A stretch of DNA of 20,073 bases from a virus. Shown here one piece after another: positions 2,165 to 5,820 of the stretch (the stretch's first letter is position 1; every line of letters starts with the position of its first letter). The notes below the pieces were generated by a model, which had not been told where the DNA came from, searched no databases, and saw only the letters and a list, made by a program, of their open reading frames with translations. The translations under genes and the position numbers were made by a program. Location: IMG/VR virus record IMGVR_UViG_3300010158_000403, positions 1 through 20,073 of that record, one strand, 5' to 3'.

Positions 2165-2634
2165 TTCGTCACCTCGTCTAGTGCGTTAATTTCCCATCTA
2201 ATTTTGCCTTCTGAATGCACAGGCTGCCAAACACGATTACCTCTGCTCGTCCACCCTTTACCTTCTTTCCATGCGGGAGATACGGCAACAATTTTAAAAC
2301 CTGCACCTTTTAATGACGATCCTGTTTCAGATACTTTGGTGTAAGTAATCAATCGTTTTCCACCCATAGCAGACCAAACACGCCAAGAGCACCGGTACAA
2401 AAAAGAACAAGTATTCTTTGGTGCTTCATCTAATACAGTTAACCTTGTAACCTCCATCGTCGCACCATCGTCTAAACGTCTAGCTACAGGTCTTCCAACT
2501 ATTGCCACGCCAACAAGATAAATTTCTTGTATTGCGCCAATGCTAAATTTGTGGCCTTGCACTTTTTTATTATGTCGATGGTGTAAAACAGTAAATGCGT
2601 TTGCATCGGCAAGAGTTAACGGTATTACGGTCAT
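2161..2634 (-). CDS. XF1762-like (GNAT-like) phage protein
   Basis: A 157-residue protein that I match from memory to the XF1762 family, which is common in phage early regions and is thought to have an acetyltransferase-like fold. Visible hallmarks are the N-terminal PLTLADANAFTVLHHRHNKK (5-24), then HKFSIGA and the ARRLDDGATMEVTRL segment, and an ITYTKVSETGSSLKGAGFK block that resembles the cofactor-binding part of GNAT folds. No substrate can be named. Its start at 2634 has a strong GGGAGGTGACGAA ribosome-binding site and overlaps the end of a possible 8-codon ORF. It ends overlapping the HTPGPW-type gene. Confidence 0.75.
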   Translation of the reverse strand: MTVIPLTLADANAFTVLHHRHNKKVQGHKFSIGAIQEIYLVGVAIVGRPVARRLDDGATMEVTRLTVLDEAPKNTCSFLYRCSWRVWSAMGGKRLITYTKVSETGSSLKGAGFKIVAVSPAWKEGKGWTSRGNRVWQPVHSEGKIRWEINALDEVTK

Positions 2635-2701
2635 TTCGTCACCTCCCTATCGTTCATTTTTTATCCTTAAAAAACTTAACTTTGCGGCTATGTGATTTCA
2701 T
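2631..2701 (-). other. Two coupled mini-ORFs (15 and 8 codons) ahead of the XF1762-like gene
   Basis: Between the HTH gene and the XF1762-like gene lie two tiny reading frames. The first, 2701-2654, would encode the basic MKSHSRKVKFFKDKK. Its TGA overlaps the ATG of the second, 2657-2631, which would encode MNDREVTK and whose TGA overlaps the next gene's ATG. The second has an AAGGA site seven bases upstream. The chain of ATGA junctions could carry ribosomes into the downstream gene. The second ORF begins with the same ATGAACGATAG as the exonuclease gene, so it may be a duplicated start rather than a gene. Translation is unproven. Confidence 0.25.
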
Positions 2702-2714
2702 AAATACGCCGAGT

Positions 2715-2957
2715 TCAGGGAAATACCAAAATTGTTTGCGGCGATGGCGCATCTTCATGTTTACGCACCTCTAGGTGATATTGCGCGACTATCTTGCCGT
2801 CAGGAAGAATAAGTGACTTGGTTTTAATGTCGTGGCCTTGTTCGCGTAATTCTTTGATCCTGGCCGCTAGTCTGAAACATCCGCACCCATGAAGCGCCTC
2901 TAGGGGCGTTAAGGGGCGTTGTTCCAGAGCCTGTAAAATCCATTGGCTCTGGGACAT
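2715..2957 (-). CDS. Small helix-turn-helix protein
   Basis: An 80-residue protein that resembles the short winged-helix family of phage proteins of the form ILxxLexRPLTPLEALxxxGCFRLAARIxELRxxGH. Here ILQALEQRPLTPLEALHG (8-25) is followed by CFRLAARIKELREQGHDIKT and a wing-like YHLEV. DNA binding is the likely role, with the CFRLAARI helix as the recognition candidate. It could regulate the leftward operon, but no target site can be assigned. The start at 2957 lies two bases past the end of the upstream gene. Confidence 0.75.
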   Translation of the reverse strand: MSQSQWILQALEQRPLTPLEALHGCGCFRLAARIKELREQGHDIKTKSLILPDGKIVAQYHLEVRKHEDAPSPQTILVFP

Positions 2958-2959
2958 GG

Positions 2960-3169
2960 TTAGACCTCTTCTTTTGGTTCAAAGTATTTAGCTTTGGCAC
3001 CACAACCAACGTGATTCCACGACCGCTCGCTTTCGGCGAACATATCGTTGAATTTGACTAGGCCGGTGACAAGTGAGATTCCATCTGGGCGATGACACTT
3101 GATGTCTTTGAGATGTTTGCAATCTTTGCAAAGTTTGACGTCTTGCTGAACTTCTGTAACCTGATCCAT
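2960..3169 (-). CDS. Small Cys-rich, possibly zinc-binding protein
   Basis: A 69-residue protein with CKDCKHLKDIKC (14-25) and a later NHVGCG, giving four well-spaced cysteines. This pattern is frequent in short phage proteins and suggests a single zinc site, though no metal binding is shown. The start has an ATAAGGGGTATAAG ribosome-binding site. It is the first gene after a 96-base gap that carries a promoter-like element, so it probably heads a sub-operon running to the recombination genes. I do not know its function. Confidence 0.65.
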   Translation of the reverse strand: MDQVTEVQQDVKLCKDCKHLKDIKCHRPDGISLVTGLVKFNDMFAESERSWNHVGCGAKAKYFEPKEEV

Positions 3170-3204
3170 CTTATACCCCTTATGTAAGAACCTGATTGAG
3201 TTGA

Positions 3205-3240
3205 ACTACACACACAGTATACATCAAATAATCAACTAAT
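3205..3240 (-). promoter_or_regulatory. Candidate leftward promoter for the 3169-to-left operon
   Basis: In the 96-base gap between 3170 and 3265 the minus strand reads TATACT (3221-3216), four bases, then GTGTAGT (3211-3205). The same TATACT-N4-GTGTAGT arrangement occurs in the control region at 7280-7264. A -35 box is weak (TTGTGT at long spacing), so an activator or a strong initial region may matter. It is placed correctly to drive the genes from 3169 leftward. A stretch rich in A and T lies upstream. Confidence 0.45.
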
Positions 3241-3265
3241 ACACAACTATTTATTCAATTTAAAG

Positions 3266-4111
3266 TTAATCACCACAAAAACACGCAATACCTTCTTCGT
3301 CTGGATCAATTAAAGATATTTGATCTTTCGTAAATTGCAACATCGATGCATAACCTGGACGATCTTTTCTAAATGTCGCACCATCGGGACGGGACGCTAA
3401 CGCTAACGCTTCCATCTGTGCCCACCAAACCGCCCTCTCTGGCTTCTCAGCAATTAACGTAGCAACTTGATTCATCGGTTTAAGAAAACACAAATCACAA
3501 TTACCCGCTAGTGTGCGGCCTTTATATGTTGGTAAATCCAAGTTAAATGCTTGTTTATCCCAAAATTCACTAATGTTTTGCATTGTCACACCGGCTGTAT
3601 AAAGCGGAATCCTACGTTTGTCTGAAATCTTAGTTGCCCGTCTCGCCTCATCGTAGCGGAGCCCTATCCAAGAGGCGTTTTCTAACTCTGATTTAGAACA
3701 ATCGTTAAAGAGTCCTGATTGTTTTAAAAAACACGCCATCGTGCGTATCTTTAGCTCTGAAGTACAGAACCTAGTGACAGGATTTGGTAAATAGTTTCTT
3801 TTACGAATGATGGCCTCGAACGGTTCACCATTTCGCGAGGCCGTCTCATACGTCACCTCTTTGTATCGTTGTAATGGGTCTTCATGGTCTTGGTACTCAA
3901 TCCAATGTATTTTGACACCCCAGTTCACAGAACAATCATTGACAAACTTTAAGGTGTTTTCTTCCTCTTTTCCTGTATTTGCAAAACATACGATACCGTC
4001 ATCAGGCATCTTCCCATCATGCGCCTGTAAGACCTGATACAGCATATACGCCGAGGTTCTACCGCCAGAGAAGCTGATACACGTTGGTTCAGTTATCACA
4101 TATGGATTCAT
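3266..4111 (-). CDS. PP-loop enzyme, PAPS reductase-like
   Basis: A 281-residue member of the PAPS reductase/adenine-nucleotide alpha-hydrolase superfamily. The pyrophosphate-binding loop is SFSGGRTSAY (13-22), followed by FANTGKEEE (43-51), RFCTSELK (115-122), GLRYDEARR (150-158), GNCDLCFLKP (203-212) and a terminal CFCGD. Cys116, Cys205 and Cys208 resemble the cysteine set of DndC-like and phage PAPS reductase proteins, where it may hold an iron-sulfur cluster. Phage members are often near DNA methyltransferases, as here, so a nucleic-acid or nucleotide modification role is possible; sulfate reduction is also possible. The substrate cannot be told from sequence. The ribosome-binding site is TATAGGGGCATTAG. 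Confidence 0.85.
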   Translation of the reverse strand: MNPYVITEPTCISFSGGRTSAYMLYQVLQAHDGKMPDDGIVCFANTGKEEENTLKFVNDCSVNWGVKIHWIEYQDHEDPLQRYKEVTYETASRNGEPFEAIIRKRNYLPNPVTRFCTSELKIRTMACFLKQSGLFNDCSKSELENASWIGLRYDEARRATKISDKRRIPLYTAGVTMQNISEFWDKQAFNLDLPTYKGRTLAGNCDLCFLKPMNQVATLIAEKPERAVWWAQMEALALASRPDGATFRKDRPGYASMLQFTKDQISLIDPDEEGIACFCGD

Positions 4112-4284: not shown

Positions 4285-4524
4285 CTAACTACAACGGCTT
4301 ACCGTGTAGACCCTTCTCTCGACGGCCACCAGGTCTAGGTGCACCATTAACGCAGTCGGTACGGTTGCCGTGAACAATAAAAAAGCCGCTATGGTGTGCA
4401 TCCTGGTGACGAATCCCTTGCGAGATTTCCCTTTTCGGGCAAGATACACAACATAACGGCTTGCTTGATCGTCACAATCAACGCCTGATTTATAACACGG
4501 TATTTTTACTTCAGCAACCCCCAT
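4285..4524 (-). CDS. Small gene with possible frameshift (KIPCYKSGVDC N-terminus)
   Basis: A 79-codon frame starting at 4524 and overlapping the end of the methyltransferase by 19 bases. Its first 19 residues, containing VKIPCYKSGVDCDD, resemble the start of short Cys-rich phage proteins I have seen elsewhere. After that the frame becomes unconvincing. The -1 frame is open from 4471 to 4289 with no usable start codon, and encodes PLCCVSCPKRE, two histidines and GAPRPGGRREKGLHGKPL, which looks more like protein. A single-base error, a real mutation or a -1 shift near 4470-4475 would join the two into a protein of about 79 residues. The function is unknown. Confidence 0.4.
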   Translation of the reverse strand: MGVAEVKIPCYKSGVDCDDQASRYVVYLARKGKSRKGFVTRMHTIAAFLLFTATVPTALMVHLDLVAVERRVYTVSRCS

Positions 4525-5531
4525 GCTGTTCTAGCCACTTCTGGTACCTGTCCATTTCCAATGGCTTTAAGTCTGTCCACCCTAGCGGCCACCCCATGAG
4601 CCACTCGACCCACGTTGGGTTCAAAGTGCCACCAGACCCCTCTTCCAACTCCCCACGCCTCGCTTGAGCCTCCAAACACTTGCTGGCTTGACTCTCCTCC
4701 TGCAATCGGTATTTGTGTTCCGATGACGTTGGTGTTGGTAACATCTTGACCTTTGTCGGCAAATCCAGCTCTTGACCCTTGTTGCTTCTGCCGCTGCTCC
4801 CCTTGTGATCCCGTGCTTGAGGTGTCGGCCATTTCACTTTCTCCCCCAACCCTTGTTGTTTCGAATTGGGGCCTCTGGGCTTCCAATCTGTTGCCATTGG
4901 TGTAGGCCACATTTGACTTGGCGGTGGGTACGCCACTTGTTCCCTCAATGTTGAATGTGTTGATCGGCCTTGCCTGTTGTTCTCGTGTTGTTTTTTTAGC
5001 GCCTCTGGAGTCCTGGGTGGCAGAGAATCCATGCAATTTGGTGTTAGCCAATATCCAGATTCGTTCTCTTTTGTGGTTTGCACCAACGTCGGCAGCGGAT
5101 ACAACGCCCCACTTTGCATCGAACCCCAACGTGGAAAGGTCTGCAAGGACAACTCCCAGTCCTCTAGTAGTGAGCATTGGGCTGTTTTCCACAAAGACGT
5201 ATTGGGGTCTAACCTCGCCAATGATGCGAGCCATGTGTTTCCACATACTAGATCGGGTGCCTGTAATTCCTGCGCCTTTTCCTGCGGCTGAAATGTCCTG
5301 GCACGGAAATCCCCCCGATACAACGTCAACAATTCCTGCCCAAGGTCGTCCGTCAAAGGTCTGAACATCATCCCAAATCGGGAAAGGCGGGAGAATCCCG
5401 TCGTTTTGCCGTGCGACAAGTACGCTTGCTGGGTATGGGTCCCATTCAACAGCACAGACGGTTCGCCATCCAAGCAAGTGTCCCCCAAGTATGCCTCCCC
5501 CAGCGCCTGCGAAAAGAGCCAACTCATTCAC
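4506..5531 (-). CDS. C5-cytosine DNA methyltransferase
   Basis: A 341-residue Dcm-type enzyme that transfers a methyl group from S-adenosylmethionine to C5 of cosine bases' parent cytosine in DNA. Motif I is ALFAGAGGG (5-13), motif IV SGGFPCQDIS with catalytic Cys77, motif VI FVENSPM (Glu115), motif VIII HKRERIW (153-159) and motif X AIGNGQVP (323-330). The variable region, about 162-300, is hydrophilic with recurring ADTNG-like units at about 162, 209, 235 and 265. It must start at GTG 5531-5529, only four bases from GGGGAG. No partner nuclease is visible, so self-protection against host restriction is the likely role. Almost the whole gene is overlapped by another open frame (4511-5527). 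Confidence 0.92.
   Translation of the reverse strand: MNELALFAGAGGGILGGHLLGWRTVCAVEWDPYPASVLVARQNDGILPPFPIWDDVQTFDGRPWAGIVDVVSGGFPCQDISAAGKGAGITGTRSSMWKHMARIIGEVRPQYVFVENSPMLTTRGLGVVLADLSTLGFDAKWGVVSAADVGANHKRERIWILANTKLHGFSATQDSRGAKKTTREQQARPINTFNIEGTSGVPTAKSNVAYTNGNRLEAQRPQFETTRVGGESEMADTSSTGSQGEQRQKQQGSRAGFADKGQDVTNTNVIGTQIPIAGGESSQQVFGGSSEAWGVGRGVWWHFEPNVGRVAHGVAARVDRLKAIGNGQVPEVARTAWGLLK
4511..5527 (-). CDS. Overlapping 338-aa protein in an alternative frame of the methyltransferase gene
   Basis: This frame runs 338 codons without a stop inside the methyltransferase gene. It begins MSWLFSQALGEAYLGDTC, contains SLWKTAQCSLL (111-121) and FPRWGSM (131-137), has W/L-P-T-P units at 207, 233 and 263, and ends near NPTWVEWLMGWPLGWT (303-318). 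I recognise these blocks from annotated phage and prophage proteins of unknown function. Its ATG (5527-5525) lies eight bases from GGGGAG and forms an ATGA junction with the upstream gene. That is better initiation context than the methyltransferase GTG. Against it: related database entries may themselves be shadows of the enzyme, and other frames here are also rather open. Function unknown. Confidence 0.55.
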   Translation of the reverse strand: MSWLFSQALGEAYLGDTCLDGEPSVLLNGTHTQQAYLSHGKTTGFSRLSRFGMMFRPLTDDLGQELLTLYRGDFRARTFQPQEKAQELQAPDLVCGNTWLASLARLDPNTSLWKTAQCSLLEDWELSLQTFPRWGSMQSGALYPLPTLVQTTKENESGYWLTPNCMDSLPPRTPEALKKQHENNRQGRSTHSTLREQVAYPPPSQMWPTPMATDWKPRGPNSKQQGLGEKVKWPTPQARDHKGSSGRSNKGQELDLPTKVKMLPTPTSSEHKYRLQEESQASKCLEAQARRGELEEGSGGTLNPTWVEWLMGWPLGWTDLKPLEMDRYQKWLEQHGGC

Positions 5532-5820
5532 GATTCTCCCCTTGGGTCTGGGCTAACACTTGGGCCCGGTGTTCTCTAAAAGTCTTCCTAATGTCGGTAG
5601 CTTCACTTTTTGTATATTTCCAATTGGGATCAAGCAATCCTGTGCGAGCCTGGGGAAAACTTATGGCATCGAGAACCGGCTGCTCATCCTCACTTTGCAA
5701 GGCGCGCGTGGGGGATTTTTCATCTATATGTGTGCGCCCATACCATCTCACACACAACGCACCGAACAGAATGACCGCCAGGACAGCGTAAAAGATAAAA
5801 ATGTAGTCATAAATATTCAT
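5524..5820 (-). CDS. Small single-span membrane protein
   Basis: A 98-residue protein with one hydrophobic segment at about residues 6-24 (YIFIFYAVLAVILFGALCV), followed by a charged tail with little predicted structure. This suggests an N-terminal membrane anchor with the rest on the cytoplasmic side, since Arg and Lys follow the segment. The stop TGA overlaps the ATG of the 338-aa alternative frame and lies just past the methyltransferase GTG. An AAAGGAT ribosome-binding site precedes the start. I do not recognise a family; superinfection exclusion or another envelope function is possible but unsupported. Confidence 0.65.
   Translation of the reverse strand: MNIYDYIFIFYAVLAVILFGALCVRWYGRTHIDEKSPTRALQSEDEQPVLDAISFPQARTGLLDPNWKYTKSEATDIRKTFREHRAQVLAQTQGENRE

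Follow-up and report, generated by a model that had tools for sequence, protein, structure and literature searches.

In M.EcoHK31I, the small gene is nested inside the large one in another frame, and the multispecific C5-methyltransferases of Bacillus phages (SPR, phi3T) carry tandem recognition domains of about 38 residues each between motifs VIII and IX. M.EcoHK31I (YGGCCR) is a two-polypeptide C5-methyltransferase whose large chain contains motifs I-VIII and X as well as the predicted recognition domain, only motif IX being left to the small one (PMC3404938). In M.AquI (CYCGRG), also made of two polypeptides, one chain contains motifs I-VIII and the other motif IX together with the distal recognition region (PMC3404938). 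Moreover, cut fragments of other C5 enzymes are able to complement each other (PMC3404938; PMC3439449). The window analyzed here, that is, the whole stretch of a virus record of 20,073 bases, contains a locus that we read, with a probability of roughly three in four, as a two-subunit C5-cytosine DNA methyltransferase whose catalytic and recognition genes are superposed in different frames, its translation, assembly and activity being untested.

The closest precedent is M.EcoHK31I, and the locus would work like that enzyme without being a member of its kind. The likeness, based on sequence resemblance and position only, consists of a large chain that has motifs I-VIII and X but leaves motif IX to a separate one. 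The two differ in recognition: M.EcoHK31I keeps the predicted domain on its large chain, and here the large chain evolves neutrally in that region, the module array being on the +1 chain. M.AquI is similar in having motifs I-VIII on one chain and the recognition region with motif IX on another, but its small chain also has motif X, which in the window is in the main frame. The M.AquI type, defined by a small chain with distal recognition region, IX and X, is thus not met by the window, and it is met by three relatives (L175, L182, L270); motif X is on the small chain in L274 as well. The SPR and phi3T enzymes share tandem recognition domains of similar size, as judged without sequence comparison, but have everything in one chain and one frame. 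Likewise, the single-chain C5-methyltransferases of actinophages (DLane gp65-type) show related modules, an EWMMGWPxGWVT element and motif X, but in a single continuous frame. ORFs hidden in another frame of a phage methylase gene are also known from the ShiLan-type out-of-frame HNH endonucleases, which are, however, inserted homing endonucleases and no part of the enzyme (PMC11855218). A search of the open-access literature gave no description of this methyltransferase/+1 overlap, nor did a keyword search of the GeneTack frame-transition survey and of a Paenibacillus phage paper turn up any mention; an earlier description is not excluded, including in subscription papers on M.EcoHK31I. What is apparently new is the recognition array in an overlapping frame, together with its spread across many phages.

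Both ORFs lie on the minus strand, to which all window coordinates below refer, and overlap almost fully, at the place and with the sizes (341 and 338 aa) reported in the preliminary description. The methyltransferase frame (4506-5531, GTG start at 5531), regarded here as the catalytic chain or alpha, matches PF00145 (E 1.9e-31) and phrog_363 (E 3.6e-68). It contains motif I (FAGAGGG, 5493-5513, invariant in A3), motif IV (PCQ, 5298-5306, invariant in A3), motif VI (ENS, 5181-5189, conserved in A3), motif VIII (HKRERIW, 5055-5075, aligned with M.HhaI) and motif X (AIGNGQVP, 4542-4565, GN invariant in A3), all present and conserved as expected of a C5-cytosine methyltransferase. The earlier statement that this frame has all the core motifs was nevertheless wrong, as an element resembling motif IX is found in the other frame. 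Because of this and of the neutrality of residues 166-290, the main frame does not by itself unite motif IX and a recognition region with the catalytic motifs, and it is named a catalytic chain rather than a complete enzyme. The overlapping +1 gene (4511-5527, ATG at 5527 right behind an in-frame TGA), the proposed recognition subunit or beta, gave a match to phrog_1008 (E 2e-31), a family labelled 'DNA methyltransferase', perhaps through the shared locus; Pfam and NCBIfam hold no family for it. Near the methyltransferase, a 157-aa protein (2161-2634) weakly resembles the Mom family, below the cut-off (PF25680, E 2.3e-4); in phage Mu, Mom modifies DNA and counters restriction. A PAPS-reductase-like protein (3266-4111; PF01507, E 0.0018, below cut-off) adjoins the methyltransferase.

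Relatives of both frames were found in all 159 viral loci fetched, at least 80 of them with the +1 protein and at least 79 more with the methyltransferase alone (L081-L159), at identities of 37-60% for the +1 protein and mostly 49-69% for the methyltransferase. The loci within each set are related to one another, their E-values hold relative to the candidates, and the counts of relatives are lower bounds. The +1 frame is uninterrupted inside in 115/115 unique relatives, methyltransferase-only fetches included, and, when read from the methyltransferase start, stays open to 20 codons or fewer from the end in 112 of them; two of the remaining three genes leave the contig, and L108 terminates slightly earlier. 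Synonymous shuffling of the methyltransferase gene yielded a mean of 6.6 +1 stops and not one stop-free version in 2000, and the sole +1 stop counted in the real sequence is the TGA within the start GTGA, immediately 5′ of the +1 ATG. The +2 frame shows a mean of 19 stops over the 115 relatives. Frequent stops in the alternative frame of homologues, which would have refuted dual coding, are thus missing from every locus fetched by the methyltransferase alone. A query with the methyltransferase of Paenibacillus phage Diva, in whose record the inner ORF is labelled 'g49 internal gene', reached more distant genes (L250-L329, 64 unique). Over the stretch scanned, 46 of them lack any +1 stop and the other 18 contain 1-3, where 5.5 would be expected; several of the stops counted are simply where the alternative ORF itself terminates, and at least L297 is truly broken. 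A scan of species genomes with a +1 profile added at least 80 loci, all matching in both frames, from Proteobacteria, Verrucomicrobia, Planctomycetes, Spirochaetia and others, and the layout is identical in relatives from Lactobacillus, Stenotrophomonas and E. coli. In the latter species, 4 of 5426 genomes match the query, and a prophage copy with both frames (L422, E. coli PT62, 2515-3258) is annotated only as DNA cytosine methyltransferase. The overlap recurs wherever this methyltransferase subfamily occurs, as had been guessed from the single sequence.

The +1 protein starts with MSWLFSQAL, and its N-terminal region (residues 1-158; 5054-5527), conserved in A1 and A2, has no assigned function. 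The SQALGEA at its start is, as previously noticed, the +1 reading of the motif I FAGAGGG. The W/L-P-T-P units also noticed in this frame form an array of modules of about 35 residues, which in the window comprises four recognition-like units starting with WLTPNCMD (4910-5050), WPTPMATD (4832-4909), WPTPQARDHKG (4742-4831, a type common to L003 and L010) and LPTPTSSEHK (4625-4741). Across 113 proteins, the middle part consists of 1-6 units starting with [WFLM]PTP or similar, with shuffled WPTPxAxD modules; the 331 modules have a median length of 35 aa and represent 107 types, arranged in 76 architectures. The array thus shows what marks the multispecific modular methyltransferases, a tandem series of exchangeable modules, about 38 residues each, at the recognition position. 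The C-terminal end (4568-4624), LNPTWVEWLMGWPLGWTDL in the window, is a nearly invariant LNPxWVEWLMGWPxGWTDL resembling motif IX of C5-methyltransferases, which in M.HhaI reads ...ARVMGYP...; calling it motif IX is an inference drawn from where it lies and what it resembles. The likely function of the +1 protein would be to provide target recognition together with motif IX. On the other hand, its structure predicted alone reached a mean pLDDT of only 57.7 without a meaningful Foldseek match, and a profile search of PDB sequences with the protein gave no significant match.

Further hints come from the actinophage DLane gp65-type enzymes, in which motifs I-VIII, LPTP modules, EWMMGWPxGWVT and motif X follow in this order in one chain. 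Of the in-frame modules of these fused methyltransferases, 74/118 are related to modules of the +1 proteins (best, 88% over 24 aa), as against 0/68 of the out-of-frame readings. Profile alignments pair the main frame with the fused-chain motifs I-VIII (E 3.9e-36) and the +1 frame with the fused-chain modules (E 3.8e-10, probability 96.7); in addition, an HMM of the +1 C-terminus matches the fused chains at EWMMGWP, and phrog_1008 matches both the +1 protein and the fused chains. When a fused chain was modelled, the structure matched M.HhaI (Z 22.9, 252 residues) and EWMMGWPTGWVT reached a pLDDT of 97-98; the modules came out poorly here too, and no recognition fold is therefore demonstrated. 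Other layouts also exist. In the swapped variants L175, L182, L270 and L274, the modules, the IX-like element and motif X are all in the +1 frame and the main frame stops past motif VIII, and in some actinophages (L381, L385, L412, L420) the modules are in +1 and motifs IX and X in the main frame, which indicates that the split point varies. These variants look like repeated frame switching, the direction of which has not been worked out. Among actinophages, an association of a +1 ATG at motif VI with modules lying in +1 (15/40 vs 4/38) is suggestive only. About 250 nt past the methyltransferase start, L344 shows an extra in-frame stretch after motif VI, absent in relatives, an insertion that is perhaps like the out-of-frame HNH insertions reported in phage methylases.

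Selection was followed in each frame with a self-written, simplified two-frame dN/dS count on disjoint pairs, excluding stop-creating changes, and not with a published program; alignments are uncertain in the variable region. At 80-90% identity, differences at codon positions 1, 2 and 3 are 0.20, 0.11 and 0.20 in the methyltransferase and 0.09, 0.05 and 0.32 in the flanking genes, that is, the third codon positions of the methyltransferase are strongly suppressed compared with those of its neighbours. The depression of synonymous variation that dual coding would demand is also seen in dSN, which is 0.24 at methyltransferase-synonymous sites vs 0.42 in flanking genes. Over 33 pairs, the methyltransferase frame has an NN/SN of 0.29 and the +1 frame an NN/NS of 0.39 (bootstrap 0.36-0.43), vs 0.71 for a pseudo-alternative frame of the flanking genes. 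Along the gene, the methyltransferase and +1 ratios are 0.10/0.43 for residues 1-55, 0.13/0.80 for 56-110, 0.19/0.34 for 111-165, 0.99/0.28 for 166-290 and 0.33/0.38 for 291-342. No +1 constraint is therefore detectable by NN/NS in residues 56-110, and in residues 166-290 (4662-5036) the methyltransferase frame is neutral and the +1 frame constrained, a pattern that reappears in two other groups (0.82/0.35 in the Diva group and 1.1/0.17 in the genome group). It is reversed in the fused actinophage genes where modules sit in the main frame (0.32/0.89), and just past motif VIII the constraint is back on the +1 side (0.70/0.34); over residues 1-110, where fused actinophages have no open +1 frame, the +1 ratio is 0.96. 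Purifying selection in both frames, the mark of an overlapping gene pair, is thus met overall and divided by region. As a result, the near full-length dual coding proposed in the preliminary description is borne out by the stop counts against shuffles and by selection in both frames, with the restriction that the two frames are not both selected along the whole length, only the alternative one being under selection in about 166-290.

The two-subunit reading implies that the main frame would give the catalytic chain, equipped with motifs I-VIII and X, and that the +1 frame, from its own ATG four bases on, would give a separate chain with an N-terminal region, recognition modules of about 35 residues and a motif-IX-like element. 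Both chains would assemble into one enzyme that may methylate one or several sequences in the phage DNA, and this methylation would in turn protect it from host restriction. As far as sequence data alone can demonstrate, protein-level selection acts on both frames, and the modules and the motif-IX-like element are inside one methyltransferase chain in actinophages and in the +1 frame here. The assembly of the chains, their multiple specificity and their anti-restriction role are inferred, and the idea of several targets per enzyme with protection from restriction leans on the analogy with the Bacillus phage enzymes and on the phage setting. The model is supported, among other things, by the middle region, neutral in one frame and constrained in the other in all three groups. 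Counting against it are the lack of expression, binding or activity data, the absence of detectable +1 constraint over residues 56-110, the poor structure model of the +1 protein, the variable split point and a few genomes with an interrupted methyltransferase and an intact +1 frame.

These genomes bear on the possibility that the +1 gene is real and its protein acts apart from the methyltransferase, for instance in anti-restriction or regulation, sharing only the locus. The methyltransferase frame is interrupted in about nine of the 80 genome loci, and the conserved N-terminal region of the +1 protein has no recognised fold or family, both in keeping with a separate function; the intactness of +1 in these loci is biased, however, because the +1 protein was the query. 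A single stop in the methyltransferase catalytic region with an intact +1 frame is seen in L198, L204, L221 and L230 (prophage or metagenome-assembled), which could be pseudogenes, sequencing errors or cases of a +1 protein kept alone, and in L174 and L227 the methyltransferase frame ends just past motif VIII, in the stretch that is neutral elsewhere. A protein working on its own is, in any case, hard to reconcile with modules and a C-terminal element related to the recognition position of single-chain methyltransferases, with a methyltransferase frame that has no conserved recognition region of its own, and with a motif X that moves to the +1 chain in the swapped forms, and we regard it as unlikely.

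The start region informs on how the +1 chain would be made. The two starts of the window read GTGAATG and are preceded by AAGGGGAG (5536-5543), a Shine-Dalgarno-like sequence 4 bases 5′ of the GTG and 8 bases 5′ of the +1 ATG. The +1 ATG is present in 112/115 genes, with an in-frame stop immediately 5′ of it in 106/113, and at the same site the methyltransferase codon is ATG or GTG in 76 genes, TTG in 11 and something other than a start codon in the remaining 28. These 28 all have an upstream in-frame methyltransferase start, several with an AAGGAG-like sequence between the starts. In 84% of genes the +1 ATG has a Shine-Dalgarno-like 4-mer in front of it, vs 25% at random internal positions; for the loci without NTG this holds in only 12/25. 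Furthermore, five loci (L018, L019, L099, L135, L156) encode the start motif, MSWLxS[QK]A or MAWLISKA, 5′ of the methyltransferase homology, indicating that it is kept as protein even without the FAGAGGG overlap; in L130, MTWLISQA is located past an extra stretch. Translation of the +1 gene from its own ATG is inferred from these data. A single polypeptide could instead arise by programmed frameshifting, with ribosomes passing into +1 past motif VIII and returning ahead of motif X, which would join the modules to the catalytic chain, as is the case in the actinophages, and the existence of both split and fused forms would fit this. Such a mechanism would nevertheless require two shifts in the window form, because its motif X is in the main frame, and it leaves unexplained both the conserved ATG directly behind an in-frame stop (slippery sites were not systematically searched) and the constraint on the first 55 +1 codons (0.43), when fused actinophages show 0.96 over 1-110; it appears very improbable. 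The notion that base composition and conserved methyltransferase motifs alone keep the +1 frame open, without a product, can practically be discarded, even though SQALGEA overlaps FAGAGGG, the first WPTP overlaps residues past motif VIII and other frames of the locus are also somewhat open, given the 6.6 stops expected from shuffles, the start motif found 5′ of the methyltransferase homology in five loci, and the selection tests, in which third-position suppression and main-frame neutrality in the module region reject it.

A last point is related to the significance of two superposed genes that we interpret as the subunits of one methyltransferase. It seems reasonably likely, short of confidence, that they represent a widespread class of phage C5-methyltransferases with an exchangeable multi-target specificity array in an overlapping gene of another frame, and that the single-chain and swapped forms record repeated frame switches between catalysis and recognition. 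If so, what is annotated as a methyltransferase in hundreds of phages and prophages may be half an enzyme, the second gene being usually overlooked or labelled 'DNA methyltransferase', and cloning of the main-frame gene alone would yield no activity or a wrong one, since it would be without the recognition part. The dual coding is long and recurrent, selection can be measured in each frame and the single-chain actinophage forms offer a natural control, and the locus makes directly testable how one stretch of DNA serves both catalysis and recognition.
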